Shown: positions 18,011 to 32,665 of the stretch, in pieces
Numbering within the stretch: the first letter of the stretch is position 1
Layout: each line of letters begins with the position of its first letter
Assembly: GCA_030591725.1 (NCBI GenBank)
Contig: JAUVAN010000003.1
Span: forward strand, 1 to 42,185
Direction of reading: 5' to 3'
DNA from: Deltaproteobacteria bacterium
GTDB taxonomy: Bacteria > Myxococcota_A > Polyangia > JAAYKL01
DNA: 42,185 bases
Notes under the pieces: generated by a model
Seen by the model: only the letters and a program-made list of their open reading frames with translations
Database searches by the model: none
Told to the model about the DNA's origin: nothing
Translations under genes and position numbers: made by a program

Positions 18011-19279
18011 TTATGCGCGAGCCCAGGGCTTCGCGATTACACCGGTTCTCACCAGCGCAAACAGGGCGAGGAGATTGCACGCGGTCGCGACGGCAATTAC
18101 GCCCCAGTTACCCTGTATGAACGGACCGATCTTCATCACCACATCGATGAGGATCAACCCCATGGAGGCGATGAGGTACCAACGAATAAGCCATGAGGTT
18201 CGTTCGCTCAAGGAGGCCTTGAAGATCAATTTGAATGCGGGCCCCAGCAGCCAGAGGTGAAGAAAAGGGTTCACCAGCAGGTTCTCGTTGTAGTGGGTGT
18301 CAAAGTGGGTGGTCGCGGTCCAGTACAGGAGGAGCATGAGTCCGCCCAGTCCGGCGATCAGCCCCCAGACGAGCAGGCCGAGCCCGGTCAGGCGCGCCGC
18401 GATCTTGCGTTTTCCAAGCGCGATGGGAAGAAGGAAACCGAGCGCCAGCAGTCCCAGGAGCACCGCCGGAATCGCGGTCTCGTAGGTCGGGGTGACCGAT
18501 TCGACGGCAGGCCCCTGTCTCTTCACGTCGACGCGCTTTCTTGAAACCAGGGGATGGTTGTCGGGACCGATACGGATCTCGTCCAGGTCCTGTGCCAGCA
18601 CCGAGGGAAGAAACTGCTCGTCCCATCGGGTTACCGGCTTGTCTATGGCCGGGCCCAGGGAATACACGATGATCGCGCAAGAAACCGGAAGTCCTTCGAG
18701 AGCATCCAGTGTCCAGTCCCGATATGTGCGCCCGGTGGGTTCCCGATCGTACTTCTTTTTTATTGCGCCCCCGATGGCATCGTCGATGATATCGCGGATC
18801 CTCGTGCAGCAGTTGTCGATGTAATGTCGGTATTCGTACTCGCGGTTTTCCGGCAGGGCGTTGGTGTCAAGTCGGTGAGCGACCTCCCGCGCCTGCTTGG
18901 GGGTCAAATCCAGGGTGCGCACGGTGACCTCGCGGTCGAAATACCGGTAGCGACCGACGATGCCCCTGTAGGTGGTCACCGACACCCAATAGATGAGGAA
19001 TCCCCGAGCGTACTTTATCTGAAGCTCCGGGTCGTTGAAGCTGAAGGTGCCGAAGTTGTAGACCTTCCTGGTCCTGCTCACCTTGTCGTCCACCATCAGG
19101 GCGATGTGCCCGAATCGGGCGAACAGATCCTCGCCCTTGCCCATGGTGAGCACCGAGATCTTGTACCTGTCTTCTGACTTGTCTGGTTGCGCTCTGCACA
19201 GTGCGGGGACAAGCGAAGCACAGGCAACAACGATTACTAGCAGTCCTCGAAACATGGATGTCATTCTAGGACGAAACAC
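18011..19279 (-). CDS. DUF4105 (LNB N-terminal periplasmic) domain protein with C-terminal TM helices
   Basis: 'KISVLTMGKGEDLFARFGHIALMVDD...YNFGTFSF', 'YRHYIDNCCTRIRDIIDDAIGGAIKK' match DUF4105 pattern; signal peptide and several TM segments in the C-terminal part. Confidence 0.85.
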   Translation of the reverse strand: MFRPRMTSMFRGLLVIVVACASLVPALCRAQPDKSEDRYKISVLTMGKGEDLFARFGHIALMVDDKVSRTRKVYNFGTFSFNDPELQIKYARGFLIYWVSVTTYRGIVGRYRYFDREVTVRTLDLTPKQAREVAHRLDTNALPENREYEYRHYIDNCCTRIRDIIDDAIGGAIKKKYDREPTGRTYRDWTLDALEGLPVSCAIIVYSLGPAIDKPVTRWDEQFLPSVLAQDLDEIRIGPDNHPLVSRKRVDVKRQGPAVESVTPTYETAIPAVLLGLLALGFLLPIALGKRKIAARLTGLGLLVWGLIAGLGGLMLLLYWTATTHFDTHYNENLLVNPFLHLWLLGPAFKLIFKASLSERTSWLIRWYLIASMGLILIDVVMKIGPFIQGNWGVIAVATACNLLALFALVRTGVIAKPWARA

Positions 19280-19369: not shown

Positions 19370-20107
19370 ATGAGACGTTTCAAGAAGCCGGTGGTCGATA
19401 AGGTCGATCCTCGATACCCCGAATACGAGATTGCGCAAAAAAGCAGACGGGAATTCATGGTCCTTCTGGGGGGCGCGGGAGCGGCGAGCCTGCTGATGGG
19501 TTGCGGTTCAAAAAATGAGCCGTTGGCGGGAAAGGTCACTTCTCCTCACGGGAAACTCGACGGGACAGACGTTTCTGAAGGTGCCGACTCGGCGCTCCTG
19601 ATCGCAAAGGAACCCGGTGATGAGCCGTCTGATAGCCAGCGCAAGCCGTCTCCTCCGGGTATGCCGCCACGGCCCGAGCATCTGGAAGTGCTCCGTCTTC
19701 CGCCCAACGCTGTTTACATTGCCTCCTTCTCCGGGGGCGGCAGCATCTCCTTCGCCGTATGGATAGAACACGACAATCCCAACCTCAGACCGTTCGTTCA
19801 CAAGAACCTCGATACGATAGGAAAAGCATTCACTGACGTAATCTCAAGGGGGTTTCACGCCTCGGATTTCGATCATCCCCGGGGCGAGGCGAGCGCAACG
19901 CGGCGTTTGCAAGAAACACTTGAGAAGCTCTACACAGGCGAGACAGGCGAACCCGCGAGAATAGGGTACTTGCGGCTCGAGATAAAACGCAATGACGACA
20001 AGATACCGGTTCCCGGCGGAATCGTAGCCCCGGTCGAACCCGAACCGCGTCCACGCCCTCGAGGTGTACCCGTGCTCAGGCCCATCATCCCAAAGGGAGT
20101 CAAGTGA
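19370..20107 (+). CDS. Tat-signal lipoprotein-like protein 1, paralog set adjacent to radical SAM enzyme
   Basis: 'DPRYPEYEIAQKSRREFMVLLGGAGAASLLMGCG' (twin Arg plus lipobox-like LLMGC); core 'SISFAVWIEHDNPNLRPFVHKNLDTIGKAFTDVI...'; C-terminus 'EPEPRPRPRGVPVLRP'. ATG at 19370 preferred over 19328. Confidence 0.75.
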   Translation: MRRFKKPVVDKVDPRYPEYEIAQKSRREFMVLLGGAGAASLLMGCGSKNEPLAGKVTSPHGKLDGTDVSEGADSALLIAKEPGDEPSDSQRKPSPPGMPPRPEHLEVLRLPPNAVYIASFSGGGSISFAVWIEHDNPNLRPFVHKNLDTIGKAFTDVISRGFHASDFDHPRGEASATRRLQETLEKLYTGETGEPARIGYLRLEIKRNDDKIPVPGGIVAPVEPEPRPRPRGVPVLRPIIPKGVK

Positions 20108-20205
20108 TTGAACGCCGTTCCTGACGCGGTGCCGAATAATCACTGATCCTTTTATCGTTTCATTCGTCGAAAGAACCAGGGGCGGAAAACCCCCGGGGTA
20201 AAAAA

Positions 20206-20814
20206 ATGAAACGATCAAAAAATCCAGTCCGGGCATCGAGTAATCCAGCGTATCCAGAAGCCCGCGATGTATCCCACGTCAACCGCAGGAAGTTCATCTC
20301 GCTGCTCACGGCGGGAACAGCCTCCATTGCTGTCTTCGGCGCGGCGAAGGCCATTGGCGCGGCCCCTCACGATCCCCGTTTCGCGCCTCCTCCCCCGCCC
20401 CGGCCGTACGACCCGCCCGATCATCCGGTCCCTGGCGGGATGCGGCCTCCGGTCTTTGCCAACTACCGCTTACCTTCCCATGGGAGCTGGTCGACAATGA
20501 TGGATGACGGGCGTTACGTATCCTATGCCCTCTGGATCAAATACGACTACACCGAAGTGTTGAGATGCGTGAAGAACAGCAGTTCCGCCATCCAGAGTTA
20601 CCTCGGCGAGCTCGTGCGCAGATACCTGTACACTGAGAATATGTACAACCCCCGGCGTTTGAGAAAAGTCGAGCGGAAGATCCTGAAGAAGATCCGACGC
20701 CTCCTCCCGGATGTTCTCGACGACGACCTGTTGGGCGTGGAACTTGAAATACTTCGGGAAAAATACATTCAACCACTGGACGGCGATGTAGCCATCCCGC
20801 ACTATTTCGACTGA
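20206..20814 (+). CDS. Tat-signal protein 2, paralog set adjacent to radical SAM enzyme
   Basis: 'NPAYPEARDVSHVNRRKFISLLTAGTASIAVFGAAKAIGAA' Tat signal; Pro-rich segment; core 'YVSYALWIKYDYTEVLRCVKNSSSAIQSYLGELVRRYL...'. Confidence 0.75.
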   Translation: MKRSKNPVRASSNPAYPEARDVSHVNRRKFISLLTAGTASIAVFGAAKAIGAAPHDPRFAPPPPPRPYDPPDHPVPGGMRPPVFANYRLPSHGSWSTMMDDGRYVSYALWIKYDYTEVLRCVKNSSSAIQSYLGELVRRYLYTENMYNPRRLRKVERKILKKIRRLLPDVLDDDLLGVELEILREKYIQPLDGDVAIPHYFD

Positions 20815-21536
20815 TGGCACGTAACAAGAAACCTGCATTCGCGGTTGCGGAACCGACGTATCCCAGCGTCGAAGACGCCGGAATCAACCGCAGGCGTTTT
20901 CTCGCAATTCTGGCCGGCGGCGCGGCGGCCACCGCGATCTTCACCGGTTGCAAAAAGAATGAACACGAAAGGCTTCCCGGACAAGAACCGGTTCCCCGGC
21001 TGTCAGGAGTAGCGCCCAACCCGGATCCGCCGGTGGAGGTAATTCCGCGTGCGTTCGCAATTCCCAGGATAGTACTCCCCGGTCTCGTCGATCTGAGCAA
21101 CGACCTGAATGCCCCCCCGCCCAACATTACCGGCATGCAGGTGAATCTGCCCGATCGAACATCTACGGCATTCACCCTCTTCTTTTCGTGGGAGACTGAC
21201 GCAGATCGCGACCTGATTGTCCGCCGTGCCGATCTGCTCATGACGACGGCGAGCAATTACCTTTCGAGCAGCTGCAATCATCGCTCTGTCACCGATCCGG
21301 TTGGCATTACCGAGACCCGGAACGCCCTTCGGCCGCTGCTCCTGGACAAACTCGGGAGACCGGGGCGAATTTACTTCCTCGATATCCAGTTCGGGCGGGT
21401 GGCACGTGTAGACCATGTCATGGGTCGTACGCCCAGACCCAGACCCCGGCCCCGGCCCCGGCCGAGACCGAAACCGCGCCTGAATGGCAAGTCTGCGATG
21501 CCGTTGAACGTCAAGGACCCCTTCAAGGAACGTTGA
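20814..21536 (+). CDS. Tat-signal lipoprotein-like protein 3 with (PR)n C-terminal tract, paralog set adjacent to radical SAM enzyme
   Basis: 'EPTYPSVEDAGINRRRFLAILAGGAAATAIFTGC'; core 'STAFTLFFSWETDADRDLIVRRADLLMTTASNYLSS...GRIYFLDIQFGR'; tail 'RTPRPRPRPRPRPRPKPR'. TGATG overlap with both neighbours. Confidence 0.78.
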   Translation: MARNKKPAFAVAEPTYPSVEDAGINRRRFLAILAGGAAATAIFTGCKKNEHERLPGQEPVPRLSGVAPNPDPPVEVIPRAFAIPRIVLPGLVDLSNDLNAPPPNITGMQVNLPDRTSTAFTLFFSWETDADRDLIVRRADLLMTTASNYLSSSCNHRSVTDPVGITETRNALRPLLLDKLGRPGRIYFLDIQFGRVARVDHVMGRTPRPRPRPRPRPRPKPRLNGKSAMPLNVKDPFKER

Positions 21537-22630
21537 TGGACGTAACTCTTTTCCTGAATCATGCGTGCAATATGGCTTGCACATACTGCTACAACGGCAA
21601 CAAGTTTCATCGCCCCATGTCGGAAGAGATAATGCGAAAGGCCGTTGAGATGGCCTTCTTCGGGAAGGACGCGCGTGTCTCATTCTTCGGTGGCGAGCCG
21701 TTACTGGAGTGGGAAATGATGCAGCGGGCCATGGCCTACGCCCGCGATCTGGAGAAAAACAAATACGAGGGCAAGACCCCCGTGCGCTTCTCCATGACCA
21801 CCAATGGAACCCTGGTGTCAAGGGAGGTGCTCGAGATCCTGAAGAACGAACGCTTTCACCTCGTCTTCAGCCTCGACGGAAACCGCGAGTCACATGAGCG
21901 CACCCGATCCTTCGCGAACGGCGCCTCTTCGTATGATGTGATCGTGGAAAACCTGAAGCGCGCAGTCAAGGCCATTCCTTCGGTGGAGACAATAACGGTC
22001 ATCGATCCCCAAAACGCCGAGCTGATCCCTGAGTCGTTCGAATCGATAATGTCCCTCGGCGTGAAGAACCTGAACTTCTCCCTGAATTACGAAGCCGAAT
22101 GGACCGACGAGCAAGTGGCGACGCTCGAGCATTCTCTCGATCGGCTGGTGGATATCTATATCGCAAAATACCGTGAGGGTATCGACTTCGCGCTGGATCT
22201 GTTCGACTCCAAGGTGATCACCCACCTCAAGGGCGGATACGCCTGTCGAGATCGGTGCAAGTTTGGAAAGGAAGAACTCTGCGTTGCCCCCAGCGGCATG
22301 CTCTATCCCTGCGAGCGCCTGGTTGGAGAGGATACCCGTCATGACGTGACGATCGGAGACATCTGGAAGGGCCCCGATCTCCAGAAGGTTGTGGAGATGG
22401 GCAAACAAAAGGACGAGCCCGACGCCGAATGTGTGGACTGCAAGCTCCAGCACCGCTGTATGTTCTGGTGCGGCTGCGTCAACTACGCAACCACGGGCAA
22501 CGTGGGAGAGACGTCCGGTATCCTTTGCAAGCTCGAGCAGATGACCATCGCGGCTGCCGACAGGGCGGCGGGAACGCTCTTCAAGGAAGAAAACCCGATG
22601 TTTATCGGAAAGTTCTACTGCGCCACGTAG
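21536..22630 (+). CDS. Radical SAM/SPASM domain protein, putative peptide/protein-modifying maturase
   Basis: 'LFLNHACNMACTYCYNG' (CxxxCxxC), 'VSFFGGEPLLEWEMM' (GGEP), 'SMTTNGTL'; C-terminal SPASM-type cysteines 'CRDRCKFGKEELCVAPSGMLYPCERLVGE...ECVDCKLQHRCMFWCGC'. Confidence 0.93.
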   Translation: MDVTLFLNHACNMACTYCYNGNKFHRPMSEEIMRKAVEMAFFGKDARVSFFGGEPLLEWEMMQRAMAYARDLEKNKYEGKTPVRFSMTTNGTLVSREVLEILKNERFHLVFSLDGNRESHERTRSFANGASSYDVIVENLKRAVKAIPSVETITVIDPQNAELIPESFESIMSLGVKNLNFSLNYEAEWTDEQVATLEHSLDRLVDIYIAKYREGIDFALDLFDSKVITHLKGGYACRDRCKFGKEELCVAPSGMLYPCERLVGEDTRHDVTIGDIWKGPDLQKVVEMGKQKDEPDAECVDCKLQHRCMFWCGCVNYATTGNVGETSGILCKLEQMTIAAADRAAGTLFKEENPMFIGKFYCAT

Positions 22631-31957: not shown

Positions 31958-32140
31958 AATTGCAAAAGATCAGACCCTCAATAAAAAGTCAGGGAGAGGT
32001 GTATAAAATCACAGTGGGTGGTTGTCAAGGTTGGGGAAGACCCCGCGCTCGCATATGCAATTCGTCTTTCTGGCTGTGGTAACGTACTAATTGCTATACA
32101 ATGAAAATCTTGATGCTTCATGCGTGGGAGTTGTAAGAAA

Positions 32141-32665
32141 ATGAAAACCAGAATGAAAATAACGACCTGGCTGGGCGCATTGATCATGTTGTTCGGATGT
32201 GGTGACGAGTTACCGGTCATTATCAACATTGCCGACGCCTCTGCAGACGCTGATATCGATGGCGACACGGATGGTGATACCGATGGCGACACGGATGGTG
32301 ATTCCGACGGTGACGGCGATTCGGATAACGACGCGGACGGTGATTCCGACGGTGACATGGATGGAGATTCCGACGGCGACAACGATGTTGATTCGGATAG
32401 CGACGTGGACGCTGACGCGGACAGTGATTCCGACAGCGATGCGGATACGGACGACGGGTATTCCTGCTCCGAGGCGCTTACGTGCATGGTCGGCGGCGAC
32501 AGTCTCTGGGACTGTCTGGCCGGCACCAGCAGCTCATCTTACGGCATCATGTGGGATCTGGGCCAGTGCCTGCTGATGTCCGGCTGCATGTCTGGTGATG
32601 ATCTCATGGGCTGCGCCATGTCCAATTGTTCGTCGGAGACAATGGCCTGCCTGGCCGATTCCTGA
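32141..32665 (+). CDS. Putative lipoprotein with Asp-rich ([11 protein letters not shown]) repeats and Cys-rich C-terminus
   Basis: '[23 protein letters not shown]' lipobox; about 75 aa of DGD/DSD repeats; C-terminal CxxxxxC pattern. ATG at 32141. Confidence 0.8.

Follow-up and report, generated by a model that had tools for sequence, protein, structure and literature searches.

An Operon of Three Exported Proteins and a Radical SAM/SPASM Enzyme

Are proteins that leave the cytoplasm under a signal peptide modified by a radical S-adenosylmethionine (SAM) enzyme before they leave? The question is raised by four consecutive genes in a stretch of 42,185 nucleotides from a Deltaproteobacteria bacterium (Myxococcota_A, class Polyangia; contig JAUVAN010000003.1, positions 1 to 42,185, called the window below), in which three genes for proteins with a twin-arginine translocation (Tat) signal precede a gene for a radical SAM enzyme with a SPASM domain. 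An earlier interpretation of this DNA, called the sequence-only reading here, had regarded the three proteins as substrates modified in the cytoplasm before Tat export and lipidation. Comparison across genomes indicates that the genes very probably encode a two-component system resembling those of ribosomally synthesized and post-translationally modified peptides (RiPPs), with a radical SAM/SPASM maturase and a recognition leader embedded in the export signal peptide. The proposal that proteins 1-3 are substrates of the adjoining enzyme appears well supported by this comparison.

On re-reading, the four genes had the positions and content described earlier, and both TGATG overlaps were present, the first (20812-20816) joining genes 2 and 3 and the second (21534-21538) joining gene 3 and the enzyme gene. 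The operon is kept in two congeneric genomes, with orthologues of all four genes, and the ratio of nonsynonymous to synonymous substitution rates among these orthologues is about 0.28, 0.29 and 0.27 for proteins 1, 2 and 3 and 0.06 for the enzyme. Because congeneric orthologues with these values exist, the four genes are considered real. A scan for promoters and terminators gave nothing above chance level.

The Enzyme Belongs to a Separate Clade of SPASM Proteins

The enzyme scored above the Pfam cut-offs for PF04055 (Radical_SAM, 76 bits) and PF13186 (SPASM, 24.5 bits). Its CxxxCxxC motif is formed by C11, C15 and C18, and eight further near-invariant cysteines (C241, C259, C299, C302, C308, C312, C314 and C331) have a SPASM arrangement. 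Over 41 homologues the three radical SAM and the eight SPASM-region cysteines are invariant or nearly so, which together with the Pfam matches confirms the enzyme type first proposed. The predicted structure (mean predicted local distance difference test, pLDDT, 94) matches the folds of CteB (5why/5wgg, the closest solved structure), anSME and ChlB. The radical SAM domain starts at the N-terminus and no N-terminal recognition domain precedes it, while the C-terminal extension common to the 41 homologues contains near-invariant F356 and Y361 and lies beyond the reach of SCIFF-type matches. Judged by its domains, its cysteines and the adjacent putative substrates, the enzyme is a member of the radical SAM/SPASM peptide and protein maturases.

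With the enzyme, the 25 best NCBIfam models all stayed below their cut-offs. The highest score was obtained for PapB (NF047865, 211 bits against a cut-off of 340), which was also the strongest overall match for all 27 clade members in the alignment (best E 8e-72). Scores for the SCIFF maturase (TIGR03974, 148 bits, cut-off 425) and the CXXX-repeat maturase (TIGR04115, 158 bits, cut-off 350) were lower, and proteins 1-3 contain no CXXX repeats. A sulfatase, SCIFF or PapB maturase identity was rejected by the cut-offs, the tree and the substrate composition. TIGR04133 and TIGR04134, by family name a radical SAM/SPASM enzyme paired with a putative lipoprotein, were rejected as well: the enzyme was not among the matches of TIGR04133 in its own genome (E<=0.001), and none of 13 scanned substrates matched the TIGR04134 models. 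In three-residue cyclophane (triceptide) maturases an aromatic residue starts the modified tripeptide, and this assignment failed because the motifs of proteins 1-3 described below have no aromatic residue. The earlier impression that the enzyme falls in no named RiPP or maturase class was therefore upheld, its scores lying below the cut-off of every NCBIfam maturase family shown.

Within the same class, genomes yielded about 50 near-full-length homologues of the enzyme. In the tree, the enzyme clade (74 rows) stands apart from the SCIFF and CXXX maturases with a Shimodaira–Hasegawa approximate likelihood-ratio support of 98. A scan of named genomes placed the clade in at least seven phyla, namely Myxococcota, Verrucomicrobiota (Akkermansia), Planctomycetota, Lentisphaerota/Kiritimatiellota, Bacteroidota, Bacillota (Lachnospiraceae and Oscillospiraceae) and Fibrobacterota (Fibrobacter). 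The tested lower-scoring matches of the same scan were SCIFF maturases well above their cut-off, and these were used as controls.

A Leader Ahead of the Signal Peptide Accompanies the Enzyme

An exported protein with a leader, usually a lipoprotein, adjoins many clade members. Beside clade enzymes the leader takes the form MKIxPxKxYKKPLY[P/A], in Myxococcota ...P-x-YP...RRxF, and it stands directly N-terminal to the signal peptide. With a single detector run on all loci, it was present in 32 of 66 non-redundant adjacent signal-peptide candidates and in 1 of 83 controls (P-value about 5e-13, Fisher test), and SCIFF-type loci gave stray pattern matches only. In each of proteins 1-3, P-x-Y-P occupies residues 14-17, RR falls within residues 26-28 and there is a Tat-type hydrophobic stretch, so that the twin-arginine signal earlier seen on each of them is substantiated. 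In the same genome P-x-Y-P occurs in proteins 1-3 and in one OmpA-like Tat lipoprotein, whereas the other Tat proteins detected with TIGR01409, about nine, all lack it; these other Tat proteins rule out that P-x-Y-P is a mere part of Tat signals in this lineage.

A check suggested earlier, whether homologues of the enzyme are linked to Tat proteins in other genomes, showed linkage to Tat or Sec exported proteins. Most substrates outside Myxococcota carry Sec lipoprotein signals, and since the clostridial and Akkermansia substrates are of this kind, Tat export is ruled out as the defining trait. What defines the substrates is the P-x-Y-[P/A] leader ahead of the signal peptide, together with the Gly-centred core motif described in the next section.

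These observations bear on whether the neighbourhood could be fortuitous, with Tat lipoproteins of a shared signal type lying beside an unrelated radical SAM enzyme. A sizeable minority of the clade lacks an adjacent substrate, and the pairing of enzyme and substrate is deduced from genome comparison. However, the same leader is linked to the enzyme across at least seven phyla and is nearly absent from controls, and the genes of this operon are translationally coupled, so that we regard a chance association as hardly credible.

A Gly-Centred Motif Is Repeated in the Exported Parts

The exported parts of the candidate substrates contain a repeated motif that the sequence-only reading had not mentioned, roughly hydrophobic-x-Gly-[D/E/G/K]-hydrophobic-x-x-Pro, of which proteins 1-3 each hold two or three copies (Table 1). 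Similar repeats in other substrates include LAGDVEQP, DEGILAGDIAQ, ELVLEGGAPVYEEP, DIVELDGDVAVV and LAGDVQIC, and the end of protein 2 (LDGDVAIPHYFD) resembles LDGDVAIEQTE of a clostridial substrate. In 54 non-redundant substrates, gathered mainly by the leader and in a few cases by eye, the pattern [LIVMFYW][ADE]G[DEG] was seen 43 times, compared with 12.7+-3.6 in composition-preserving shuffles. Motif density was 0.84 per 100 amino acids in leader-bearing substrates and 0.12 in control exported proteins.

The most constant residue of the motif is Gly. When 13 FliL-like paralogues from four genomes were aligned without anchoring on the motif, Tyr-Pro in the leader, RR and G216 (numbering of protein 1) were invariant and P221 was nearly so; outside the signal region the only invariant positions were two spacer prolines and G216. 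The motif copies of proteins 1-3 contain no Cys and no W, F, Y or H. Elsewhere Cys occurs at the motif in a minority of substrates, and most copies are without it.

Given the residues available in proteins 1-3, Cys thioethers, aromatic cyclophanes, formylglycine and Tyr-based chemistry are unlikely as the general product. With neither Cys nor aromatic residues in the motifs of proteins 1-3, the reaction would most likely attack C-H bonds, either aliphatic or of the backbone; its outcome would then be epimerisation, a C-C, C-N or C-O bond, or desaturation around Gly, and we rank none of these above the others.

A different product would be expected if the enzyme were a ranthipeptide-type thioether maturase of the PapB/SCIFF kind, with the substrates here an odd subset and a Cys thioether as product. 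Its closest curated family by score is indeed PapB (211 bits), among solved structures the SCIFF maturase CteB is nearest to it, and some substrates have Cys at position +7 of the motif (LAGDVTVCEPP, IDGDMPACQPGE) or at +3 (in the G-C-V variant). However, the PapB cut-off of 340 bits is not reached, and Cys is missing from most motif copies, including all those of proteins 1-3, the sole Cys of protein 1 being that of its lipobox. We therefore consider a thioether maturase improbable.

Modification might instead fall within the signal peptide, on the Tyr of P-x-Y-P or elsewhere, since no other part of the substrates is as conserved as P-x-Y-[P/A]. This site precedes the hydrophobic stretch and would be lost when the signal peptide is cleaved off, and a modification there would leave the independent enrichment of the Gly motif unexplained, which makes it a very unlikely target.

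Relatedness and Predicted Fold of the Three Proteins

Proteins 1 and 2 are paralogous (BLASTP E=2e-9 over 187 amino acids), and the BLASTP similarity of protein 3 to both is confined to the N-terminus. Profile comparison related protein 3 to proteins 1 and 2 over 98% of the length (E=1.8e-13), with shallow profiles and a contribution from the shared leader. Together with the 13-paralogue alignment, these comparisons bear out the similar cores earlier noticed in the three proteins. A lipobox-like Cys is present in protein 1 (C45) and protein 3 (C46); the sole Cys of protein 2 is C121, so only proteins 1 and 3 look lipidated.

In an AlphaFold2 model of protein 1, built from 13 sequences, the core (residues ~106-209) was confident (pLDDT mostly 75-93), and the remainder, including the motif-bearing tail, had low confidence. 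The best Protein Data Bank matches of the core were FliL periplasmic domains (6ahp, 6ahq and 7sgn; TM-score to target 0.70-0.80; E=8e-4 for 6ahp), followed by stomatin/SPFH domains. According to this model the core of protein 1 is FliL-like, in agreement with the resemblance earlier judged by eye, and homology alone would extend the fold to proteins 2 and 3. The substrates had no match among Pfam and NCBIfam families.

Candidate Substrates in Other Genomes

Four types of candidate substrates were distinguished. The first (type a) consists of linkers with several motif copies, as at loci L042-L045 and in clostridial genomes; with five or six copies, the substrates of L044 and L045 contain little beyond the signal peptide and the motifs. 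The second (type b) has a FliL-like domain with the motif after its last strand (proteins 1-3 and L046). The third (type c), found in several phyla, is a domain some 200 residues long in which a [FYV][LIV]SE[DES]EA stretch is conserved. The fourth (type d) comprises very short lipopeptides of Akkermansia, of which two at locus L082 would have mature parts of 17-18 residues.

Leader-bearing proteins were also found away from any enzyme gene. Five scattered Tat proteins with P-x-Y-P-like leaders were found in genome G064 and two in genome G069, several of them with the motif, and these are probably of the FliL-like type b as well; the search covered part of the genomes, so these counts are minimum values. 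In the genome of the window itself, an OmpA-like peptidoglycan-binding lipoprotein with a P-S-Y-P Tat leader is encoded far from the enzyme (locus L188, 2121-2831, contig C58). It is kept in both congeners, its LDGEPTKV motif could be due to chance, and it is a probable fourth substrate. Such cases suggest that substrates can be encoded far from the enzyme. Among the recurrent families near clade enzymes, those that were identified are substrates (shadow frames and mixed groups were left aside), and no conserved third gene for a protease, transporter or partner protein was identified among them.

Several findings weigh against this interpretation. The leader filter left 28 of the 70 clade members of the tree without a substrate; these include contig ends, degenerate leaders and a subclade of Myxococcota (e.g., L048 and L059). 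Type c, a conserved variant of the substrate, has only a related G-C-[V/M] motif at the corresponding position. Genome G069 contains substrates, but its incomplete assembly yielded no enzyme. The motif is a short, degenerate one, and outside the pattern-free alignments its Gly is fixed in advance by the pattern used for searching. Finally, chemical modification of the proteins is itself inferred from these comparisons.

At L048 and L059, which represent one Myxococcota family, a large peptidase-like protein with a MYXO-CTERM-like tail precedes the enzyme homologue and there is no leader-bearing substrate; the peptidase-like protein is possibly a divergent substrate or reflects loss of the linkage.

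Proposed Mechanism

The clade, the linkage, the leader, the motif and the predicted folds were observed or computed; from them we infer recognition, the occurrence of modification, its site and its chemistry, as follows. The substrate would be made with an extra N-terminal leader, ending in P-x-Y-[P/A], ahead of the signal peptide. The enzyme would probably recognise this leader in the cytoplasm, and its radical SAM cluster, helped by the SPASM auxiliary clusters, may modify the Gly motifs in linkers and C-terminal tails. Export would follow modification, by Tat here, where a folded FliL-like domain would be carried, and by Sec in most other phyla. Signal peptidase would then cut off the leader, so that no dedicated exporter or leader protease would be needed, and the modified protein would stay lipid-anchored in the envelope, with the exception of protein 2, which looks soluble. 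Such a scheme would explain both the lack of a conserved transporter or protease nearby and the place of the signature ahead of the signal peptide. Of the original proposal of modification before Tat export and lipidation, the substrate role is supported by the comparison, Tat export is not a defining feature, and lipidation fits proteins 1 and 3 only.

Comparison With Known Systems

To our knowledge, no Tat-exported RiPP class has been described. No description of a system like the present one was found in the open-access literature searched, most subscription papers being outside that search. In kind, the system would be one of radical SAM/SPASM-modified peptides or proteins, and its enzyme-substrate pair is in no catalogue searched. 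Most motif copies are incompatible with the common SPASM reactions, so unusual chemistry is likely. Whether the system is a widespread undescribed class, with its leader within a Tat or Sec signal and a SPASM reaction of a new kind on a Gly motif free of Cys and aromatic residues, perhaps at the Gly alpha-carbon, is a more tentative matter, and we hold this slightly more doubtful than probable. If the two-component proposal is right, a protein-modification system of at least seven phyla would decorate envelope lipoproteins, including those of gut Akkermansia, rumen Clostridia and soil-type myxobacteria. The proposal yields specific predictions as to which proteins, which residues and which enzyme are involved, and the very short Akkermansia substrates would be convenient test objects.

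Like the present system, PapB (NF047865) and SCIFF CteB (TIGR03974), the nearest by score and by fold, respectively, combine a radical SAM/SPASM enzyme with a substrate encoded nearby. They differ in that the enzyme here scores below their cut-offs, the motif is generally without Cys and the substrates are signal-peptide proteins. CteB has an N-terminal recognition domain, whereas the enzyme here begins directly with the radical SAM domain. The CXXX-repeat system (TIGR04115/TIGR04116/TIGR04119) likewise has a SPASM maturase and a repeat-bearing substrate, but its repeats are Cys-based and it has an extra CXXX maturase protein.

Bufferins and other RiPPs modified by multinuclear non-heme iron-dependent oxidative enzymes (MNIOs) have precursors with a cleavable Sec signal peptide, some of them of the lipoprotein type; long protein-like precursors occur, modification is thought to precede export, and a Sec signal peptide on a RiPP precursor is called highly unusual (PMC12452194). 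The likeness lies in the signal-peptide precursors, and the differences in the MNIO with its partner protein and in the Cys-centred motifs; PMC12452194 does not mention Tat. In the Tvg system, the radical SAM enzyme TvgB makes cyclopropylglycine on TVGG repeats (PMC9062424). Its repeated aliphatic-Gly motifs without Cys or aromatic residues are similar to those here, but Val directly precedes Gly there and one residue lies between them here, and the Tvg cluster includes a peptidase and transporters.

Two other loci were observed in the genome of the window. At L215 (740-4568; contig C409:6239-10067) there is a known CXXX system with a Tat-exported substrate, which is lipoprotein-like, has an Asp-Thr linker and many Cys-x-x-x repeats, and is followed by a CXXX-repeat maturase (517 bits, above the cut-off) and a fused CXXX_matur/CXXX_rpt_assoc protein. 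At L216 (366-3391, contig C394) three tandem proteins lie beside an ApyD-like radical SAM protein (below the cut-off). Two of the three weakly match the NHLP-clan leader domain (Os1348 type, below the cut-off), followed by a lipoprotein-type signal and an Asp-Thr linker, making this locus a candidate for another RiPP whose precursor leaves as a lipoprotein.

Feature Coordinates and Neighbouring Genes

Table 1. Genes, leaders and putative modified motifs of the operon, in positions of the window.
Feature	Position	Strand	Remarks
Putative substrate protein 1 gene, 245 aa	19370..20107	+	P-R-Y-P leader, Tat signal, lipobox C45, predicted FliL-like core ~106-209, Pro/Arg-rich tail
Leader P-R-Y-P, protein 1 residues 14-17	19409..19420	+	13-paralogue alignment; kept in leaders of several phyla
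Putative modified motif LAGKVTSP, protein 1 residues 52-59	19523..19546	+	Motif comparison
Weaker motif copy LDGTDVSE, protein 1	19556-19579	+	Follows LAGKVTSP
Putative modified motif VPGGIVAP, protein 1 residues 214-221	20009..20032	+	Directly after closing strand of predicted FliL-like core; conservation of G216 and P221
Putative substrate protein 2 gene, 202 aa	20206..20814	+	P-A-Y-P leader, Tat signal, no lipobox Cys, core akin to protein 1
Leader P-A-Y-P, protein 2	20245..20256	+	13-paralogue alignment
Putative modified motif VPGGMRPP, protein 2 residues 75-82	20428..20451	+	Motif comparison
Putative modified motif LDGDVAIP, protein 2 residues 191-198, near C-terminus	20776..20799	+	LDGDVA recurs in clostridial substrates
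Putative substrate protein 3 gene, 240 aa	20814..21536	+	P-T-Y-P leader, Tat signal, lipobox C46, diverged core of the same kind
Leader P-T-Y-P, protein 3	20853..20864	+	13-paralogue alignment
Putative modified motif LSGVAPNP, protein 3 residues 63-70	21000..21023	+	Orthologues: LPGIMPHP, LPGVMPHP
Putative modified motif VMGRTPRP, protein 3 residues 202-209	21417..21440	+	13-paralogue alignment
Putative modified motif LNGKSAMP, protein 3 residues 223-230	21480..21503	+	Motif comparison
Putative radical SAM/SPASM maturase gene (P0004), 364 aa	21536..22630	+	Radical SAM domain from start; clade-specific helical C-terminus ~340-361

A membrane protein gene at 18011-19279 on the minus strand is divergent from the operon and adjoins it; its product presumably resembles the DUF4105 family, and it is not prominent as a conserved neighbour at other clade loci. 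Farther along the window, a lipoprotein-like protein without linkage to the enzyme is encoded at 32120-32665; it has long Asp-Gly/Ser-Asp repeats, and its short C-terminus contains Cys.

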